Part shown: positions 25,032 through 36,832 of the stretch, in pieces
Layout of the letters: the number at the start of each line of letters is the position of its first letter
How positions within the stretch are numbered: the stretch's first letter is position 1
Assembly (NCBI RefSeq): GCF_013410775.1
Contig: NZ_JACCFH010000001.1
Coordinates: forward strand, 3,782,001-3,846,000
DNA length: 64,000 nt
Reading direction: 5' to 3'
DNA from: Sphaerotilus montanus
GTDB lineage: Bacteria > Pseudomonadota > Gammaproteobacteria > Burkholderiales > Burkholderiaceae_C
Translations under genes and position numbers: made by a program
The notes under the pieces: model-generated
Seen by the model: only the letters and a program-made list of their open reading frames with translations
What the model was told of the DNA's origin: nothing
Databases searched by the model: none

Positions 25032-25769
25032 TCAGAACCGGAAGCCCGCCTTGACACCGTAGCTGGTGGCATCGCCGGTCTTGTCGGCTTCGACCGCGAG
25101 GTTCACCAGACCGAGGTTGACGTTGACGCCACCGAAGACGCGGGTCTGGTGGATGCGCTCCTTCTGGAGCAGCGTGGTGCCGGTGACCTGCGTGCGGGTG
25201 GTGACGGTGCCGATGCCGGCATAGGGCGTCGCGAACAGGAAGCCCTTGGAGATCGACACGTCCAGCCCGGCGCTGCTGGCCTTGAGCTGGTCGATGCCGC
25301 TGAGCTGCGAATAGCTGGCACGCACGGCCAGCGCCGGCGTCAGCACGCCGCCCGGCACGAAGGCCCAGCGCAGCTCGCCGCCTGCGGTGGTGGCGCCGGT
25401 TGTCGGCACACGGCCGAGCGAGGCGCCGATGTCGATGTTGAACGGCAGGCCCTTGACCGCGCGCACGGAGGCCACCGGCAGCGCCTTGGGCACGTCCGCG
25501 CCGGCAGCGGCCTTGGACAGCACGTCGCGGTGCTGCAGTTCGGTGGCGGTGACGCCGACGCCGATGTCGAAGCCGATCACGCCCAGCGGTTCCGCCGGCA
25601 CCAGGGCCTTGTAGGACAGCGCGGCGCCGAGGTCTTCGCTCAGGGCGCGGAACTCGGACTGCGTCAGCAGGTTGAGGGTGTTGATCTCCAGCGCATTGGC
25701 GCCGCCGGTGGCCAGCAGGGTGGTCGCGGTGGCGGTGGCCGTCAGCAGGGTGCGCAGTGCGAGCTTCAT
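25032..25769 (-). CDS. Predicted outer-membrane beta-barrel protein of unknown function
   Basis: A 245-residue exported protein: signal peptide (residues 1-26, ending GANA), then alternating amphipathic strands and a C-terminal GVKAGFRF ending in Phe, typical of barrel proteins recognised by BamA. Stretches such as GVIGFDIGVGVTATEL, FNIDIGASLGRVPTTG and LGLVNLAVEADKTGDATSYGVKAG look like successive strands. It resembles hypothetical outer-membrane proteins found in Burkholderiales, but no named family is certain. It stands alone between the MFS gene and parE. Confidence 0.7.
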   Translation of the reverse strand: MKLALRTLLTATATATTLLATGGANALEINTLNLLTQSEFRALSEDLGAALSYKALVPAEPLGVIGFDIGVGVTATELQHRDVLSKAAAGADVPKALPVASVRAVKGLPFNIDIGASLGRVPTTGATTAGGELRWAFVPGGVLTPALAVRASYSQLSGIDQLKASSAGLDVSISKGFLFATPYAGIGTVTTRTQVTGTTLLQKERIHQTRVFGGVNVNLGLVNLAVEADKTGDATSYGVKAGFRF

Positions 25770-25916
25770 TCGGGGATCCTTCAGGTTCTGGGTCTGGAGT
25801 GCAAGGAGAGCGGGCAGGCTAGCACCCGGGTATTGCCGGCTTGTGCCTGGCTTGTGACGGACCGCACCGAAGTGCAGGAAGTTGTGCCGCCTGTTGCAAA
25901 CCTACAATCCGCCGCC

Positions 25917-27914
25917 ATGGCCACCAAGACCCCGACTTCCACTTCCCCCGCCGCCTATGGCGAAGCCTCGATCCGCGTCCTGAAAGGGCTGGAGCCGGTC
26001 AAGCAGCGCCCGGGCATGTACACCCGCACCGAGAACCCGCTGCACATGGTGCAGGAGGCGATCGACAACGCCGCCGACGAGGCACTCGCCCACCACGGCA
26101 AGCGCATCGGCGTGACCCTGCACACCGACGGCTCGGTCAGCGTCGAGGACGACGGCCGCGGCATCCCCTTCGGCCTGCACCCGGACGAAGGCGTCCCGGT
26201 GGTCGAGATCGTCTTCACCCGGCTGCACGCGGGCGGCAAGTTCGACAAGGGCTCGGGCGGCGCCTACAGCTTCTCGGGCGGCCTGCACGGCGTGGGCGTG
26301 TCGGTGACCAACGCGCTGGCGACCCGGCTGCAGGTGACGGTGTGGCGCGAGAAGCAGGTCGCGACGCTCGCCTTTGCTGGCGGCGACGTGGTCGAGCCGC
26401 TGGTGATCCGCCCGGCCGGTCCGCCCTCGTCGGGCGACCGCAAGCAGGGCACGACGGTGCGCGTCTGGCCGGACCCGAAGTACTTCGAATCGCCAGAGCT
26501 GCCCAAGCACGAGCTGGTGCACCTGCTGCGCAGCAAGGCGGTGCTGATGCCGGGCGTGACCGTCACGCTCACGCACGAGAAGACCGGCGAGGTGCAGACC
26601 TGGCTGTACCAGGGCGGCCTGCGCGACTACCTGGCGCAGCACCTGAACGGCGAGCCGCTGATCCCGCTGTTCGAGGGCGCGCAGTACGCCAGCAGCGGCG
26701 CCGACGAGACTTTCGCGGAAGGCGAGGGTGCCGCTTGGTGCGTCTCCTTCAGCGAGGAGGGCGCCAACCTGCGCGAGAGCTACGTCAACCTGATCCCGAC
26801 GATTGCCGGCGGCACGCACGAGGCGGGGCTGAAGGACGGGCTGTTCCAGGCGGTCAAGGGCTTTGTCGAGATGCATGCGCTGTGCCCCAAGGGCGTGAAG
26901 CTGATGCCGGACGACGTGTTCGGCCGGGCCAGCTTTGTGCTGTCAGCCAAGGTGCTCGACCCGCAGTTCCAGGGCCAGACCAAGGAGCGCCTGAACAGCC
27001 GGGACGCGCTGCGGTTGGTGTCGTCGTTCGTGAAGCCGACGCTGGAGCTGTGGTTGAGCCAGCACGTCGAGCATGGCAAGAAGCTGGCCGAACTGGTCAT
27101 CAAGCAGGCGCAGGCGCGCCAGCGCGCCGGACAGAAGGTCGAGAAGAAGAAGGGCTCCGGTGTCGCCGTGCTGCCCGGCAAGCTGACGGACTGCGAGAGC
27201 CGCGACCTGGCGATGAACGAGGTCTTCCTCGTCGAGGGCGACTCGGCCGGCGGCAGCGCCAAGATGGGCCGCAACAAGGAGACGCAGGCCGTGCTGCCGC
27301 TGCGCGGCAAGGTGCTCAATGCCTGGGAGGTCGAGCGCGACCGGCTCTTCGCCAACAACGAGATCCATGACATCGCGGTGGCGGTGGGCGTCGATCCGCA
27401 CGGCCCCAACGACCAGCCCGACCTGTCGGGTCTGCGCTACGGAAAGATCTGCATCCTCAGCGACGCGGACGTGGACGGCTCGCACATCCAGGTGCTGCTG
27501 CTGACGCTGTTCTTCCGCCATTTCCCCCGGCTGGTCGAGAACGGCAACATCTTCATCGCCAAGCCACCGCTGTACCGGGTGGACGCTTCCGCCCGCGGCA
27601 AGAAACCGGCCGCGAAGTTTTACGCACTCGACGAAGGTGAATTGCAGGCGATACTTGACAAACTGCGCAAGGAAGGGGCTCGCGACGGTTCATGGAGCAT
27701 CAGCCGTTTCAAGGGGCTGGGTGAAATGAATGCCGAGCAGCTCTGGGAAACCACGCTGAATCCGGACACGCGCCGGCTGATGCGGGTGGAGTGCGGTGCA
27801 CTGGGTGTGACCGAGACGACCGCGGCGCTGACCCGCTTGATGGGCAAGGGTGAAGCGGCCTCTCGGCGCGAACTGATGGAGCTGCACGGTGATGCAGTGG
27901 ACGTCGATGTCTGA
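25917..27914 (+). CDS. parE: DNA topoisomerase IV subunit B (ParE)
   Basis: ParE is the ATPase subunit of topoisomerase IV, which decatenates daughter chromosomes. The 665-residue protein has the GHKL ATPase site (EAIDNAADEA, EDDGRGIP, GGLHGVGVSVTNAL), the transducer domain, and the TOPRIM region EGDSAGGSAKMGRNKETQ and ILSDADVDGSHIQVLLLTLFFR. The start is the ATG before ATKTPTSTSPAAYGEASIRVLKG. A TACAAT box (25903-25908) ends only nine bases before it, so the transcript could be nearly leaderless. ParC, its partner, lies 6.6 kb downstream on the same strand. Confidence 0.96.
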   Translation: MATKTPTSTSPAAYGEASIRVLKGLEPVKQRPGMYTRTENPLHMVQEAIDNAADEALAHHGKRIGVTLHTDGSVSVEDDGRGIPFGLHPDEGVPVVEIVFTRLHAGGKFDKGSGGAYSFSGGLHGVGVSVTNALATRLQVTVWREKQVATLAFAGGDVVEPLVIRPAGPPSSGDRKQGTTVRVWPDPKYFESPELPKHELVHLLRSKAVLMPGVTVTLTHEKTGEVQTWLYQGGLRDYLAQHLNGEPLIPLFEGAQYASSGADETFAEGEGAAWCVSFSEEGANLRESYVNLIPTIAGGTHEAGLKDGLFQAVKGFVEMHALCPKGVKLMPDDVFGRASFVLSAKVLDPQFQGQTKERLNSRDALRLVSSFVKPTLELWLSQHVEHGKKLAELVIKQAQARQRAGQKVEKKKGSGVAVLPGKLTDCESRDLAMNEVFLVEGDSAGGSAKMGRNKETQAVLPLRGKVLNAWEVERDRLFANNEIHDIAVAVGVDPHGPNDQPDLSGLRYGKICILSDADVDGSHIQVLLLTLFFRHFPRLVENGNIFIAKPPLYRVDASARGKKPAAKFYALDEGELQAILDKLRKEGARDGSWSISRFKGLGEMNAEQLWETTLNPDTRRLMRVECGALGVTETTAALTRLMGKGEAASRRELMELHGDAVDVDV

Positions 27915-27956
27915 ATGAAGTCCGGCCGGTTGCTGGCCGGTGATGGGGGTGGAGAG

Positions 27957-29186
27957 ATGGAGCAGTTCAATGGTGTGGTGGGATCGCTGGCGGCCGGACT
28001 GGGGCCTTACGCGCCCAAGGTGATCGGTGCGCTGGTGCTGGTGCTGGTCGCGTGGATCGGCAGCCGGCTGGTGCGCACCGCGGTCACGCGGTTGTGCCAG
28101 AAGCGCGGGCTGGACGAGAAGCTGCAGTCACCAGGCTTCTCGGCGATGCTGGCCAATGTCGGCGTCGGGGTGGTCTGGCTGTTCACGCTGCCGGGGTTGC
28201 TGGAGACGCTCGAACTCAAGGGTCTGCTCGACCCGGTCAACGTCATGGTGTCGCGCATCATGGGGTTCGTGCCGAATCTGGTCGGCACCATCGTGGTGTT
28301 CGGCATCGGTTTTCTGGTCGCGCGCATCGTGCGCCAGATCGTCACGGGCATGCTGCGTGCAGCCGGCTCCGAGAAGATGGCCGAGCGCATGGGGCTGACC
28401 ACTTCGCTGGGCGAGGGCGGGCTGGCCGGACTGGTCGGCTCGATGGTCTTCGCCTTCATCATGCTGCCGGTGCTGGCTGCTTCCCTGGAGCCGCTCGGGC
28501 TGGACGCCGTGACCAAGCCGGTGAGCAACCTGCTCGACACCGTGATCGCGCTGATCCCGAAGGTCACCGCATCGGCCGTCATCGTGGCGGTCGCGGCGCT
28601 GATCGGGCGCGCCGTGGCGGGCATCACCACCGGCGTGCTGAGCGGCATGGGCTTCAACCGGCTCTCGCAGCACCTCGGGCTGGGCGAGATGGGACGCGCG
28701 GGCGCGCGCACCCCGTCGGAGCTGGCCGGCTCGGTGGTCATGTTCGCGATCGTGATCGTGGCGGTGATGCAGGCCTGCGAGGTGCTGGGCTTCGCGATCC
28801 TGACCACGCTGGTGGCGAATCTGGGTGCCGTGATGGCCGGAGTGGCCGTCGCCGGGGTCGTGATGATCGGCGGGCTCTGGCTGTCGAACTGGGTCGCCGG
28901 GCTGATCCGCGCGGGTTCGGCGGTGAATGCGCCCGCGCTGGCGAATCTGGTGCGCGGTGCGATCCTGTTCTTCACGGCCGCGCTGGCGCTGCGCCAGGCG
29001 GGGCTGCCGGGCGACATCGTCGGCATCGCCTTCGGCTCGGTGGTGGGGGCGATCGCGGTGGGTGTGGCCGTCGCTGTTGGTGTGGGCGGTCGCCATGTGG
29101 CGGGTCGTCTGCTGGAAGAGGCCGTGCAGGCCCTGCGCACCGAGCCGCCGCCGTCGGACGCGCCGCCCATCCGGTTCCCGGACTGA
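27957..29186 (+). CDS. Mechanosensitive channel-like membrane protein (TM-helix repeat, CmpX type)
   Basis: A 409-residue membrane protein with about ten hydrophobic segments and recurring units of the conserved TM-helix repeat (PKVIGALVLVLVAWIGSRLV, VPNLVGTIVVFGIGFLVARIV, IPKVTASAVIVAVAALIGRAV). This pattern belongs to the CmpX/MscS-related group of small-conductance channels, though it lacks a clear MscS beta domain. The start follows a GGGGGTGGAGAG stretch; an earlier in-frame ATG at 27915, right after the parE stop, would add 14 residues. Proximity to parE suggests co-transcription. Confidence 0.75.
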   Translation: MEQFNGVVGSLAAGLGPYAPKVIGALVLVLVAWIGSRLVRTAVTRLCQKRGLDEKLQSPGFSAMLANVGVGVVWLFTLPGLLETLELKGLLDPVNVMVSRIMGFVPNLVGTIVVFGIGFLVARIVRQIVTGMLRAAGSEKMAERMGLTTSLGEGGLAGLVGSMVFAFIMLPVLAASLEPLGLDAVTKPVSNLLDTVIALIPKVTASAVIVAVAALIGRAVAGITTGVLSGMGFNRLSQHLGLGEMGRAGARTPSELAGSVVMFAIVIVAVMQACEVLGFAILTTLVANLGAVMAGVAVAGVVMIGGLWLSNWVAGLIRAGSAVNAPALANLVRGAILFFTAALALRQAGLPGDIVGIAFGSVVGAIAVGVAVAVGVGGRHVAGRLLEEAVQALRTEPPPSDAPPIRFPD

Positions 29187-29204
29187 GCACGGACCTGGTC
29201 CGGC

Positions 29205-30791
29205 ATGTGGGTCCGACTGCGCCGCCGCTATTTCGACAGCCGCCCGCTGGTGTGGCAGTTCGCGGTGGCCACCCTGCTGCCTGCGCTGCTGGTGGCTGCC
29301 GTGCTGCACTGGGGGCTGCAGGGGGCGCCGGACGTGGTCGGTGCCGTTCTGGCCACGGCGGGTCTGTCGACCGTGGTCAGCGTGCTGCTGGCCCACCGCG
29401 TGGGGCGTTCGCTGCGGCAACTCGTCGCGGCCACCCGGATGGTGCGCCGCAGCCGGCCGCTCGATGACGTGAACCTGCCGCTGCAGACGGGCAGCGCCGA
29501 GTTGCAGCGGGCCAGCGCGGGTCTGCGCCGGCTGATCGAGGTCTGGCGTCGGCGCCAGCGCGCGCTGATCGCGCAGACCGAGACCCTGGGCCGGCGGCTG
29601 GAGTTGCGCACGCATGAACTCTCCACCCTGCAGGACCTCTCGATCGGACTGGCCAGCAAGACGGAGCTGCATGAACTGGTCGCCGAGGCGCTGGGCGCGC
29701 TGGAGCAGACCATGGCCTACACCAGCGCCTCGGTCTGGTCGCGCACGGCGCGTGACGAGGGCGGGCAGGTCGTGCTGATGGGCTACCGCCAGAATGACGA
29801 CGCCGCCGGGCAGTCGCCCGCCGAGGACCTGACCGGCATGCGCCTGTCGCGATCGAACCTGCAGCATTACGAGTACATCGAACGGGAAGGGGCCCCCATC
29901 GTCGAGAACCGCGTGCGGCAGAGCCTGCTGTCCTGGCTGTGGTCCTGGTTGTCGGACGATGCGCGCACCTCGGGGCTGTACCGGGGGACGAAGGCGTGGA
30001 TGGCGGTGCCGCTGAAATCGCGCGAGGCGGTGATGGGCGTGCTGCGGGTCGACCACGAGGAGCCGGACTTCTTCGACGCCGAGCGGGTGCGCCTGCTCAC
30101 GGCGGTCGGCAGCCAGACCGGGCTGGCCATGCGCCACGCGCAGCTGCTGGCCCAGCAGAAGGACCAGGCCGTCGTGGCCGAGCGCAACCGCATCGCCCGC
30201 GATCTGCACGACGCGGTGTCGCAGACCCTGTTCGCGGCCAACGTGATCGCCGGCACGCTGGGCCGGCTGGCGTCCCGGCTGGCCGAAGGCGACGCGGCGG
30301 CGGCCGTGCTGCAGCAGCAGGCCGAGGCCCTGGAGCGGCTCAACAAGGGCGCGCTGGCCGAGATGCGGCTGCTGATGTTCGAGCTGCGCCCCGATGCGCT
30401 GCAGCACCTGCCGCTGGCGGAGCTGCTCCAGCACGCCATCGACGCGCTGGCCAGCCGCGGCACGATCGAGGTCTCGCAGCGCCTGGCGCGCGACGACCGC
30501 CTGCCCGGTGCCAGCCGCGTCCACATCTACCGCATCGCCCAGGAGGCGCTGTCCAACATCGGCCGCCACAGCGGTGCGAGCCATGCCGTGGTCGAGTGGA
30601 TCGTGCCCGAGCACGGCGCCGGCGGACGGCTGCGCATCGCCGATGACGGGCATGGATTCGACCCCGGTGCATCGCCACCGGGCCACTTCGGTCTCGGCAA
30701 CATGGCCGAGCGGGCGGCCGAGATCGGCGCGACCTGGAACATCACCTCGGGACCGGACGAGGGCACCGAAATCCGGCTGGAGCTGCCATGA
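29205..30791 (+). CDS. Sensor histidine kinase, NarX-like
   Basis: A 528-residue sensor kinase. Two transmembrane helices near the N-terminus (about residues 18-35 and 46-63) are separated by only a few residues, so there is almost no periplasmic sensor. A HAMP-like linker and a GAF domain (about 135-320, [14 protein letters not shown] ... [17 protein letters not shown]) suggest cytoplasmic sensing. The HisKA_3 dimerisation domain has [18 protein letters not shown] with the phospho-acceptor His335; the ATPase domain ends [15 protein letters not shown]. The response regulator gene overlaps by four bases. Confidence 0.9.
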
Positions 30792-31456
30792 ACAAGAACG
30801 ATTCCATGAACGATCCCCAAGCGACGCGCATCAGCGTCTTCATCGTCGATGACCATCCGATGATCCGCGCCGGTCTGGTGGGGATGATCACCGGCGAGAA
30901 CGATTTCCTCTGCGTGGGCGAAGCAGGGCACGGCGCGGATGCCGTGCGGATGATCCCGGCGCTGCAGCCGGACGTCGTGCTGATGGACCTGCTGATGCCG
31001 CAGATGGACGGCATCGAGGCCATCCGGCAACTGCGCCCGCTGGCACCTCAGACGCGCTTCCTGATCCTCACCAGCCTGACCGAACCGGGCGAGGTGCAGC
31101 GGGCGCTGGCCGCGGGGGCCGTGGGCTACCTCACCAAGACCGCGTCGGCGCACGAACTGGTCAACACGATCCGCGCGGCCTACGGGGGCCGGCGTGTGCT
31201 GTCGCCCGAAGCCACCGAGGCGTTGATCAGCGTGTCGCAGAACACGGCCCCCGGCGCTGACCTGACCCAGCGCGAGCGCGAGCTGCTGGCGCTGGTGGCC
31301 CGCGGCCTGAGCAACCAGGACATCTCGGACCAGCTGCACATCGCGCTGCCGACCGTCAAGTTCCACATCACCAACATCCTCAGCAAGCTGGGCGTGGGCA
31401 ACCGCACCGAAGCCGTGCTCATCGCCTTGCGCCACAAGCTGGTGCCGCCGAACTGA
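30788..31456 (+). CDS. NarL/LuxR-family response regulator
   Basis: A 222-residue two-component regulator with a receiver domain (phosphorylation site Asp67 in [13 protein letters not shown]; acidic pair DD at 21-22; Lys in [11 protein letters not shown]) and a C-terminal LuxR-type helix-turn-helix ([21 protein letters not shown] and [21 protein letters not shown]). It is translationally coupled to the kinase gene upstream through an ATGA overlap and should receive phosphate from it. Targets are unknown. The first gene downstream is the exported protein behind leader element A. Confidence 0.92.
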
Positions 31457-31479
31457 CGCCCCGCGCGTCCGGACACCCG

Positions 31480-31640
31480 GACTTTGGTCTGGGGTCGCCC
31501 CCGCCCCAGGGCTGGCAGCGCGGCAGCGGCTCCCGCCTACCATTGTTTCTGCGAGCCAACATGTCCTCCCCCCCGCGGACGGCTCGCAGGGAACATAACT
31601 GGCAGGGAGGAATTTTTTCAAACTACATGAATCTGCCAGA
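31480..31640 (+). promoter_or_regulatory. Structured leader element, copy A
   Basis: One of two related sequences upstream of exported-protein genes. Stem 1 is CTGCGAGCC (31549-31557) with GGCTCGCAG (31581-31589), enclosing a 23-base loop with the C-rich CCTCCCCCCC. Stem 2 is CTGGCAG (31599-31605) with CTGCCAG (31633-31639), whose loop holds GGAGG (31606-31610) followed by a T-run. GGAGG is complementary to CCTCC in loop 1, which allows a loop-loop or pseudoknot contact. Both stems are kept in copy B with compensatory base changes, which favours RNA function. No known riboswitch was recognised. Confidence 0.65.
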
Positions 31641-31738
31641 TTCACCCGGGGTTGTGACCAGGGTCCGGCGCGGACGACGGTGGTGATGGATCGATACTGG
31701 GTGATCGATGTCTCCACCTGGCTGCTGCCCCGATTCCC

Positions 31739-32860
31739 ATGTCCATTCATTCCTGCTTCCGAGTCACCGTGCTCGCCGCCGCGATGGCGCTTGGTGCGCT
31801 GTCGGGCATGGCCGCACAGGCCGCGCCGACCCTGGCCGGCTGCGAACTCTTTCCCTCCAGTGCCATCTTCAGCCAGCGCATCGACGATGTGCAGCGCTTC
31901 CCGCCCCACGAACGCAGCGCGGCCTGGCTGGGCTCCATCGGCCTGGGCCGCAAGCTGCACGCCGACTGGGGCCGCACGGTCGATCCCGCGCAGACCGACC
32001 GCTACTACGGCATCCCCGTCAGCGTGGTCGACGGCACCCCGGCCACGACCCGCTGGCCGCTCGTCAGCCATGCCATCCAGGACGCCCGCGATGCGAACGG
32101 CAGTGGCGTGCCATCGGAAAGCGACTGTGCGGTCGGGGACCAGGGGCTGCCCGTCATCAAGCGTGGCTGCGACGGCCTGATTCCGGCGCGCCGGCGCTTT
32201 CCCTATCCCAATGACGGTCTGCTCAAGGCCGAGCGCGGCCTGTGCAACGACCCGGCCACCTGCGGCGACCGGCATGTGCTGGTGCTGGAGCAGGGGGCGT
32301 GCCGCCTCTGGGAGAGTTACTTCACCTACCAGATCAACGGCCGCTGGAGCGCCTATTCCACCGCCGCCTGGGACCTGAAGTCGATGGAGATGCGGCCCGA
32401 CGGCTGGACCTCTGCCGATGCGGCCGGCCTGCCCATCCTGCCGCTGCTGGCGCGCGCCGACGAGGTCGAGGCGGGCGTGATTTCCCATGCGCTGCGCGTG
32501 ACCTTCCGCGACGCCGTGCTCGACCGGCGCCACACCTGGCCCGCCAGCCACTCGGCCGGAACGACCCGGGCCGATGGCATTCCGTTCGGTGCGCTGCTGC
32601 GCCTGCGGGCGGACTTCGACATCCCGTTCTGGTGGACGGCCCAGGCCAAGGTGCTGGCGCGGGCGATGCAGAAATACGGCCTCTACGTGGCCGACATCGG
32701 CTCGGACTTCTACGTCCAGGGCGATCCGGACGAGCGCTGGGGGCGCCTGACGATCTGGCAGATCCAGCGCATGAAGCTCAACGACTTCGAGTTCGTCGAC
32801 CTCGGCGCCATCACGCGCCACCCCCGCTTCCATCCGCGGTCCTACCAGGCCGCCTGGTGA
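31739..32860 (+). CDS. Conserved exported protein of unknown function
   Basis: A 373-residue protein with a Sec signal peptide (cleavage after MAAQA, about residue 28). The mature part has several Cys residues (GCELFPSS, ESDCAVGD, KRGCDGLIPA, LCNDPATCGDRHVLVLEQGACRLWE) suited to disulfides. Conserved-looking blocks are DRYYGIPVSVVDGTP, RPDGWTSADAAGLPILPLLARADEVEAG and KYGLYVADIGSDFYVQGDPDERWG. From memory this layout resembles secreted proteins common in actinobacteria and some other soil bacteria whose function is unknown. No catalytic motif was identified. No good ribosome site precedes the ATG; leader element A lies just upstream. Confidence 0.75.
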   Translation: MSIHSCFRVTVLAAAMALGALSGMAAQAAPTLAGCELFPSSAIFSQRIDDVQRFPPHERSAAWLGSIGLGRKLHADWGRTVDPAQTDRYYGIPVSVVDGTPATTRWPLVSHAIQDARDANGSGVPSESDCAVGDQGLPVIKRGCDGLIPARRRFPYPNDGLLKAERGLCNDPATCGDRHVLVLEQGACRLWESYFTYQINGRWSAYSTAAWDLKSMEMRPDGWTSADAAGLPILPLLARADEVEAGVISHALRVTFRDAVLDRRHTWPASHSAGTTRADGIPFGALLRLRADFDIPFWWTAQAKVLARAMQKYGLYVADIGSDFYVQGDPDERWGRLTIWQIQRMKLNDFEFVDLGAITRHPRFHPRSYQAAW

Positions 32861-32890
32861 GGCGGTGCGGCCTCCGGGCGCGTCGAACCA

Positions 32891-33045
32891 GACTTTCGGA
32901 CAGGCTTGCGCCGGACCTCGGTCCGGTACTGCACGGAACATGCGTGCCTACCATTCGCTGGCGGGCCGCACATCCTCCCCCCCGCGGATGGCCCGCACGG
33001 AACCACAACTGACAGGGAGGGCTTTTTCAAAAAGCAACTGTCAGG
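32891..33045 (+). promoter_or_regulatory. Structured leader element, copy B
   Basis: The second copy, aligning with copy A almost without gaps: GACTTT to TACCAT is 58 bases in both. Stem 1 is GCGGGCC (32961-32967) with GGCCCGC (32990-32996), replacing the A-T pair of copy A with G-C. Its 22-base loop shares the CCTCCCCCCCGCGGA core. Stem 2 is CTGACAG (33009-33015) with CTGTCAG (33038-33044), replacing a G-C pair with A-T. The loop holds GGAGG (33016-33020) and an extra small hairpin GCTTTTT/AAAAAGC. It lies just before a DUF481-like outer-membrane protein gene. Confidence 0.65.
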
Positions 33046-33084
33046 GGAATGGTCAGTACGCATCGAACGCACCAGCTCACACCA

Positions 33085-33870
33085 ATGAACAACTTCTTCG
33101 CACTCGGCCTGATGTCCATCGCGGCCTTCGCCTCCAGCGTGGCACAGGCCCAGACCGCCGCGCCGGCCACTCCGACCGCCACGCTGAAGACGGATGGCAA
33201 GCTGCGCGCAGCCCTCGGTCTCGGCGCGAGCTTCTCGTCCGGCAACAGCCGCACGTCCAACGTCTCGCTGACTGCGCACGGCGTGCGGGCGACGGAGCAG
33301 GACAAGGCGACGGTCTATGGCTCGGCGCTGTATGCGCGTGCTGCGGGCGTGACCTCGGCCGAGCAGTTGCGTGCAGGTGGCCGCTACGACTACAACCTGG
33401 GCACCGACACCTTCGCGTTCGGCACCGCCGACCTGGAGCGTGACAAGCTCGCCAACCTGTCGCTGCGTGGCGTGTTCGGCGCCGGTGCCGGTCTGCACGT
33501 GATCAAGACCCCGGCCACCACGTTCGACGTCTACGGCGGTCTGGCCTACAACGCCGACAAGTACGTGGCCGCCACCGTCATCGACGGGCAGTCGCGCTCG
33601 TCCTATGGCTACGCCGCACTGCTGCTGGGCGAAGAGTTGCAGCACCGCCTGTCGGACACGACCAGTGCCTGGCAGCGCCTGACGGTCTACCCGAACCTGC
33701 GCAACCGCGGCGAGTTCCGCGCCAGCTTCGCGTCGGGGCTGTCGGTGGCGATGTCCAGCGTGATGAACCTGAATGTCGGCCTGGGCTATGCCTTCAACTC
33801 CGACCCGGGCGTCGGCCGCAAGAAGGGTGACACGCTGCTGACCACGGGCGTGTCGGTCAAGTTCGACTGA
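33085..33870 (+). CDS. DUF481-like outer-membrane protein
   Basis: A 261-residue exported protein with a signal peptide ending AQAQ (about residue 22) and a beta-barrel pattern. The stretch LGLGASFSSGNSRTSNVSLTAHG is the start of the DUF481 family (salt-stress/YdiY-like outer-membrane proteins with the GNS motif). Later strands include YDYNLGTDTFAFGTADLERDKLANLSLR, and the C-terminus is TTGVSVKFD. Function of the family is not known in detail. The ATG at 33085 gives the best signal peptide; an ATG at 33049, just after the leader element, would add 12 residues. Neither has a clear ribosome site. Confidence 0.8.
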   Translation: MNNFFALGLMSIAAFASSVAQAQTAAPATPTATLKTDGKLRAALGLGASFSSGNSRTSNVSLTAHGVRATEQDKATVYGSALYARAAGVTSAEQLRAGGRYDYNLGTDTFAFGTADLERDKLANLSLRGVFGAGAGLHVIKTPATTFDVYGGLAYNADKYVAATVIDGQSRSSYGYAALLLGEELQHRLSDTTSAWQRLTVYPNLRNRGEFRASFASGLSVAMSSVMNLNVGLGYAFNSDPGVGRKKGDTLLTTGVSVKFD

Positions 33871-33883
33871 TCCGGATCCGCCC

Positions 33884-34426
33884 ATGGAACTCGGCACGGC
33901 CTCCATCCTGGTGCAACTGCTGCTGATCTTCGTGCTGGTGGCCCTGTTCGCAGGGCGGCGCCGGATACGGCTCCACCGCGAGCGGCGCGACACCACACCA
34001 GGCGCAGCGACGCCCGCGGCCACCCCGTGGCCGTCCATGCGTTCTGCGGCACCTGCCGTGCCGCCTGCGCCGGTGCTGGTCGAGTTGCCGGTCGCGATGC
34101 GGCGCACACCCGTCCAGGGTGTGTCCAGCCGCGTGTCCGAGGAGTTGCTGCCGCCCTGTTTTGCCGACACCTGCGCCGACTGGGCCCAGGTGGACCCGGT
34201 CCCCGGCAAGGCGCCCGGCCAGGTGCCCGACACCCGCTTCAGCCTGGCCGACTGGTCGGCGCCGACAGACCGTGTCGCACTGGACAGCGCACTGGATTCC
34301 GCCGGCCTGGACTGGGCGCTGGAGGCCCGGGTCGAGTCTCCCCGTGCCATGCGCCCGGTACCTGTCCGCACGGGCGGCGCGCCGATGTCCTGCACAATCG
34401 CGCCGCAGGTGCACCAATGCGCCTGA
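33884..34426 (+). CDS. Hypothetical protein with an N-terminal membrane anchor
   Basis: A 180-residue protein with one hydrophobic helix at the N-terminus (residues 6-23) followed by a basic stretch (GRRRIRLHRERR), so the rest should lie in the cytoplasm. The remainder is Pro/Ala-rich and low in secondary structure (about residues 35-85), then acidic (DWAQVDPVPG ... DWSAPTDRVALDSALDSAGLDWALEARVE). No family was recognised. It sits 13 bases after the DUF481 gene and 60 bases before parC, both on the same strand, and its codon use matches neighbours, which argues it is real, though confidence is limited. Confidence 0.5.
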   Translation: MELGTASILVQLLLIFVLVALFAGRRRIRLHRERRDTTPGAATPAATPWPSMRSAAPAVPPAPVLVELPVAMRRTPVQGVSSRVSEELLPPCFADTCADWAQVDPVPGKAPGQVPDTRFSLADWSAPTDRVALDSALDSAGLDWALEARVESPRAMRPVPVRTGGAPMSCTIAPQVHQCA

Positions 34427-34486
34427 ACTGACCCGTGCCGGTCTCCACTGTGGCGGCGGGTCATGCCGTGACCCGACTGCCGCAAG

Positions 34487-36832
<2,346 letters not shown>

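Follow-up and report, generated by a model that had tools for sequence, protein, structure and literature searches.

The E. coli tisB mRNA (+42) combines a 5' pseudoknot with a stretch left single-stranded some 100 nt ahead of its masked ribosome site (PMC7708055). In Alphaproteobacteria, the anti-Shine-Dalgarno loop small RNAs SmelA075, SmelA099 and RS0680a present a constant C-rich loop on a variable stem (PMC3927594). Pseudoknot riboswitches of the preQ1-I kind include a Shine-Dalgarno-sensing type (PMC10622847).

The element analysed here stands twice, as copies A and B, in a window of 64,000 nt from the genome of Sphaerotilus montanus. It may resemble tisB in having a structured 5' end, a possible pseudoknot and, in the predicted folds of five of six A leaders, a single-stranded site ~100 nt before a masked start. 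It differs from tisB in that its RNA is apparently a primary transcript under the control of a two-component system and stands ahead of exported proteins; its standby role is putative, and a relation in sequence is not apparent. A small 5' hairpin whose C-rich loop may pair with a downstream Shine-Dalgarno-like sequence is a feature that we take to be shared with preQ1-I. Unlike preQ1-I, the element has no Rfam match, and no start codon stands next to its Shine-Dalgarno-like sequence. The genes downstream are not known to be linked to queuosine. A hairpin with a constant CCUCC-type loop and a variable stem is likewise found in the anti-Shine-Dalgarno small RNAs (PMC3927594), but those carry two to four such loops, whereas the element carries one, shows no recognisable terminator and lies in front of genes.

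The source genome groups with Sphaerotilus/Leptothrix. The locus contains, in order: parE (25149 to 27914); a gene for an MS-channel-type membrane protein; a histidine kinase gene (29205 to 30791, + strand; GAF and HisKA_3 by domain annotation); a NarL/LuxR-type response-regulator gene (30788 to 31456, + strand); element A; gene A (31739 to 32860, + strand); element B; a gene for a DUF481 outer-membrane-type protein (33086 to 33870, + strand); a gene for a small membrane protein; and parC. A kinase/response regulator pair and its putative exported targets are thereby enclosed between the topoisomerase IV genes parE and parC (25149 to 36832). In two related genomes (G305, G309), the response-regulator gene directly follows parE, with no kinase gene between. 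The DUF481 gene probably starts at 33086, judging by its signal peptide, within a reading frame open from 33049. Gene A encodes an exported protein of no known family: no convincing Pfam, NCBIfam or PDB relative and no solved relative was found, and its AlphaFold model reaches a pLDDT of only 30. Proteins A of orthologous loci are 67-88% identical to that of the window, and homologues are spread over roughly 16 further genera of the family. As the sequence-only reading had noted, both genes lack a clear ribosome binding site, neither having a Shine-Dalgarno sequence.

That reading described two copies whose sequences, stems and coordinates stand as given. Its 58-base spacing between GACTTT and TACCAT is accurate from start to start (31480 to 31538 and 32891 to 32949), with 52 bases lying between the hexamers. 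The element is ~68 nt long on the + strand. The core of A (31551 to 31618, + strand; 86.4 bits with covariance model R2) consists of stem 1 with its C-rich loop, a linker, CAGGGAGG and U6. The core of B (32961 to 33028, + strand; 80.3 bits with R2) consists of stem 1 (GCGGGCC/GGCCCGC), an apical ATCC/GGAT, the C-rich loop, CAGGGAGG (33013 to 33020) and U5. Both are delimited with the help of covariation. Folding, alignment and covariation place stem 1 of A at 31551 to 31587 (+ strand), with GCGAGCC (31551 to 31557) facing GGCTCGC (31581 to 31587), an apical GTCC (31563 to 31566) facing GGAC (31577 to 31580), and the loop TCCCCCCCGC. Stem 1 thus has 7 bp plus a 4-bp apical part, RUCC/GGAY, which had previously been missed. 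Across 13 copies the invariant parts are: the stem-1 loop of C5-8, preceded by U in 12; a linker of 14-18 nt; CAGGGAGG, unchanged in all 13; 2-3 nt; and U4-7. In A, CAGGGAGG with AA and U6 (31603 to 31618, + strand) is the strongest Shine-Dalgarno-like sequence measured, and there is no start codon at Shine-Dalgarno spacing from it.

When the 13 copies are aligned to the fitted model, two-sided changes affect 9 of the 11 pairs of stem 1 and 99.3% of cells are paired, a value reached by 0 of 500 shuffles; partners slid out of register pair at 28-44% only. An unfitted MAFFT alignment of nine copies gives 100% pairing and two two-sided pairs. In the diverged B copies the sequence of stem 1 is largely replaced (GCCGGUGAU/AUCGCCGGC, GUCGGUUGCC/GGUGACCGAC). 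U.G pairs occur at neighbouring stem 1 positions, in four copies at one and in two at the next; these would be A.C mismatches on the other strand, which indicates that the + strand RNA is meant. Judged by this comparison, stem 1 is a real RNA helix. Native sequences also fold better than dinucleotide-preserving shuffles, with z -3.4 for A (0 of 200 as good) and z -2.4 for B (4 of 200). From +20 to +59, identity among the six orthologous A copies is 94-100%, versus 19-64% in the non-coding promoter and the far downstream flanks. The covarying pairs, the wobbles that fit the + strand and the promoter-like sequence immediately ahead give good support, by sequence comparison, to the proposal of a conserved RNA fold in a leader.

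Stem 2, for which compensatory changes had likewise been reported, holds for part of the family. In A it pairs CTGGCAG (31599 to 31605) with CTGCCAG (31633 to 31639; whole span 31599 to 31639, + strand), is present in all six A copies and never varies among them; it is partly shared with B. In B of the window's genome (G000) it pairs CTGACAG (33009 to 33015) with CTGTCAG (33038 to 33044; whole span 33009 to 33044, + strand), a G-C to A-U change, and in B of G307 it includes one U.G pair. In the remaining five copies it is absent or no better than shuffles, so it is not a constant part. In the A copies the arm CTGCCAG also belongs to the palindrome AATCTGCCAGATT, mutually exclusive with stem 2. 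A small hairpin, GAATCTGCCAGATTC (31629 to 31643, + strand), is incompatible with stem 2 of A; ATCTGCCAGAT is present in 6/6 A copies. All 13 copies allow the suggested pairing of the two loops, through 5-7 pairs between the stem-1 loop and GGGAGG, but it is not above chance, 103 of 2000 shuffled loops being as good; both of its sides are nearly invariant, so covariation does not bear on it.

Upstream of stem 1 lie the features of a candidate promoter. The -10-like hexamer TACCAT occurs at 31538 to 31543 in A and at 32949 to 32954 in B (+ strand), 7 and 6 nt before stem 1, and across copies a hexamer ending 6-8 nt before stem 1 reads TACCAT, TAAGAT, GATCAT, CATCAT or TAACAT; three A copies have weak versions (GAAAAT, CACACT). 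Farther upstream, around -65, come palindromes with the pattern CCNGAC-N4-GTCNGG, and the B copies and G059 have similar ones at -42 to -46. The putative operator of A, CCGGAC-TTTG-GTCTGG (31477 to 31492), is centred about -66 from stem 1 and is among the 3 genome matches to CCNGACNTNNGTCNGG. That of B, CCGGAC-CTCG-GTCCGG (32911 to 32926), is centred at -42, and a weaker palindrome lies at about 32889 to 32905. Two of the three genome matches fall at this locus and the third looks chance-like; the reversed control pattern has 14, counting both strands. The palindromes are hardly recognisable in three A copies (G305, G309, G249). On sequence, then, the copies share a putative operator at a fixed distance from the -10, hardly found elsewhere, as in a promoter controlled by a response regulator. 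The neighbouring NarL-type response regulator is likely to activate both promoters, and the element seems to be where two transcripts driven by the response regulator begin, rather than a mobile repeat. A sigma-54 reading of TGGCAG was ruled out by eye, GC being absent at -12. Five A leaders (L033, L034, L036, L037, L038) carry a block, ATCGATACT, between element and start codon that could be a second -10-like site.

The 13 copies come from seven genomes of the Sphaerotilus clade and always lie between the response-regulator gene and parC. Among the records with homologues, the named ones are S. natans ATCC 13338, S. sulfidivorans D-501, S. hippei DSM 566, Leptothrix sp. C29 and two Sphaerotilus metagenome-assembled genomes. 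A DNA search of 13 genomes of the genus gave six A and three B copies, from which covariance model R1 was built; R1 then recovered a diverged B copy from each of G305, G309 and G249, as well as the one copy of G059. A second model built on every copy, R2, returned these 13 again, with no further convincing match in the same genomes. A loose two-part pattern matches A and B and no other site, both in the window, where 0.02 matches were expected, and across the 5.07 Mb genome. Outside the clade, searches of 401 family genomes with R1 and of 399 order genomes with R2 brought up weak matches alone, the inspected ones chance-like, under stricter filtering by which weak relatives could be missed. 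A loose pattern over 84,980 species returned the Sphaerotilus clade, chance matches and a Phyllobacterium repeat, with no convincing copy outside the clade; an overly loose pattern over 301 genomes gave noise only. The Phyllobacterium genomes (L072, L078, L079, L084, L089, L092, L122, L123) carry the repeated element TCCCCCTTGTGGGGAGGGARGCTGCGNAGCAGCAGGGAGGGGNTTTTT. Covariance-model and Rfam searches, proposed earlier as a check, thus yielded homologues in the Sphaerotilus clade and no Rfam family, either for the window at gathering score or in permissive searches of the element and five homologous loci, where nothing relevant appeared. Titles and abstracts of the papers found mention neither a small RNA from Sphaerotilus or Leptothrix nor any RNA of this kind there.

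Homologues of protein A in other genera lack the element upstream. G059 has one copy with B-like features, between response regulator and small membrane protein, and its gene A homologue lies elsewhere without the element. In G305, G307 and G059 a copy directly precedes the small membrane protein and DUF481 is absent; since the copy precedes differing genes, the element stays with the promoter and not with a particular gene. Element A probably arose by duplication as gene A entered the locus. In G303 and G171 (L146, L147), palindrome-rich promoter-like sequence follows a response-regulator homologue, with other genes and without the RNA element. The element is uncatalogued and clearly supported, and the transcripts of a small dedicated regulon most likely begin with it.

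What this 5' end does may be approached through ribosome access. With the 16S tail, CAGGGAGG/GGGAGG forms a duplex of -11.1 kcal/mol, versus -1.5 to +1.9 at the gene A and DUF481 starts tested. The U-run lies 48-126 nt from the start codon across copies, and this variable distance makes direct masking of the gene's own ribosome site unlikely. In five of six A leaders, folding leaves 65-96% of the U-run region unpaired but only 13-39% of the start region, which lies 105-126 nt away, although such predictions are unreliable for GC-rich RNAs of 160-240 nt; in A of G306 the spacing is 48 nt, and in the B leaders an open U-run with a masked start is less clear, the picture being mixed. A leader peptide behind GGGAGG was ruled out, as a start codon there is not conserved. 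Three loci (L036, L037, L038; S. natans, S. sulfidivorans and Leptothrix sp. C29) have a long inverted repeat that includes or adjoins the gene A start codon; its sequence differs among them, one example being GCGAGAGATC/GATCTCTCGC.

Ribosome docking is favoured because this layout of open U-run, closed start and genes without Shine-Dalgarno sequences resembles the tisB standby site. We tentatively regard the element, with rather less than even confidence, as a translation-control leader, whose structured 5' end would offer ribosomes a standby site at which to dock for such genes. The mechanism would involve: response-regulator promoters that start the transcripts of two envelope genes at stem 1; a U-rich stretch and invariant GGGAGG, with no start codon nearby, that could act as standby docking for the 30S subunit and protein S1; delivery of the docked 30S to downstream start codons lacking Shine-Dalgarno sequences, which in A leaders would sit in folded RNA; and a 5'-terminal hairpin, perhaps pseudoknotted through pairing of the C-rich loop with GGGAGG, that may present or lock the docking site.

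The strongest rival holds that A and B are sibling small RNAs of ~70 nt, from stem 1 to U-run, whose C-rich loop (UCCUCCC) pairs with the ribosome-binding sites of other mRNAs. It ranks so for two reasons: beyond the U-run the B copies are no longer conserved, and a C-rich loop on a variable stem characterises one group of anti-Shine-Dalgarno small RNAs, the loop being kept while the stem changes as reported for SmelA075/RS0680a (PMC3927594); the genes behind B also differ between species. We consider it doubtful, since no ordinary terminator hairpin was found next to the U-run, conservation in the A copies runs past it, and the element always precedes a gene of the same locus. The U-run could instead belong to a transcription attenuator, in which loop UCCUCCC and GGGAGGA end transcription unless the apical stem, which shares CC, or a factor prevents it. 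A helix of 5-7 bp is possible in 13/13 copies, 2-3 nt before U4-7, and would compete with the covarying apical stem. The chance-level complementarity of loop and GGGAGGA, the 5-bp helices with mismatches near the U-run in several copies, and the need for a pseudoknotted, large-loop terminator make this unlikely.

A slightly lower probability attaches to a stabiliser, a hairpin at the exact 5' end that shields the response-regulator-induced mRNAs from 5'-dependent decay. The -10-like hexamer 6-8 nt upstream would place the hairpin there, and the element is independent of the downstream gene and of start-codon distance, but it would give no reason for the constancy of the C loop, the linker and the CAGGGAGG-U-run. 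A ligand- or protein-sensing switch (riboswitch, CsrA-type site or thermometer) is improbable. The compact conserved fold with a possible pseudoknot, the competition in A between stem 2 and the AATCTGCCAGATT hairpin, which exclude each other, and an AGGGA matching the core of CsrA sites would suit it; the missing Rfam match, the confinement to one clade and the several B copies lacking stem 2 do not. The sequence-only reading had offered a switch or thermometer controlling access to GGAGG; evidence was found neither for a thermometer nor for a ligand switch, and the start codon is >48 nt away from GGGAGG, in most cases about 100-130 nt, whereas a thermometer would mask a start-proximal Shine-Dalgarno sequence by a weak helix. 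The other suggestion of that reading, a mobile regulatory repeat, is not supported: each genome has at most two copies, in orthologous places, with no spread and no plasmid or phage match found. A DNA element of any kind, whether mobile repeat or protein-binding site, is very improbable; palindromes in the promoter part speak for it, but the U.G wobbles of stem 1 are mismatches in DNA and on the minus strand, and the genome holds no further copies.

Extending the docking reading, the element may define a new RNA family of sheathed bacteria, in which a two-component system induces transcripts with a portable 5' pseudoknot module whose Shine-Dalgarno-like docking site, free of a start codon, gates translation of envelope genes without Shine-Dalgarno sequences. 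We put this forward as a speculative proposal, less probable than docking itself. If the standby reading is true, the docking of ribosomes far from the start codon, so far familiar in tisB and other toxin mRNAs, would extend to ordinary envelope genes, in bacteria with little known RNA-based control.
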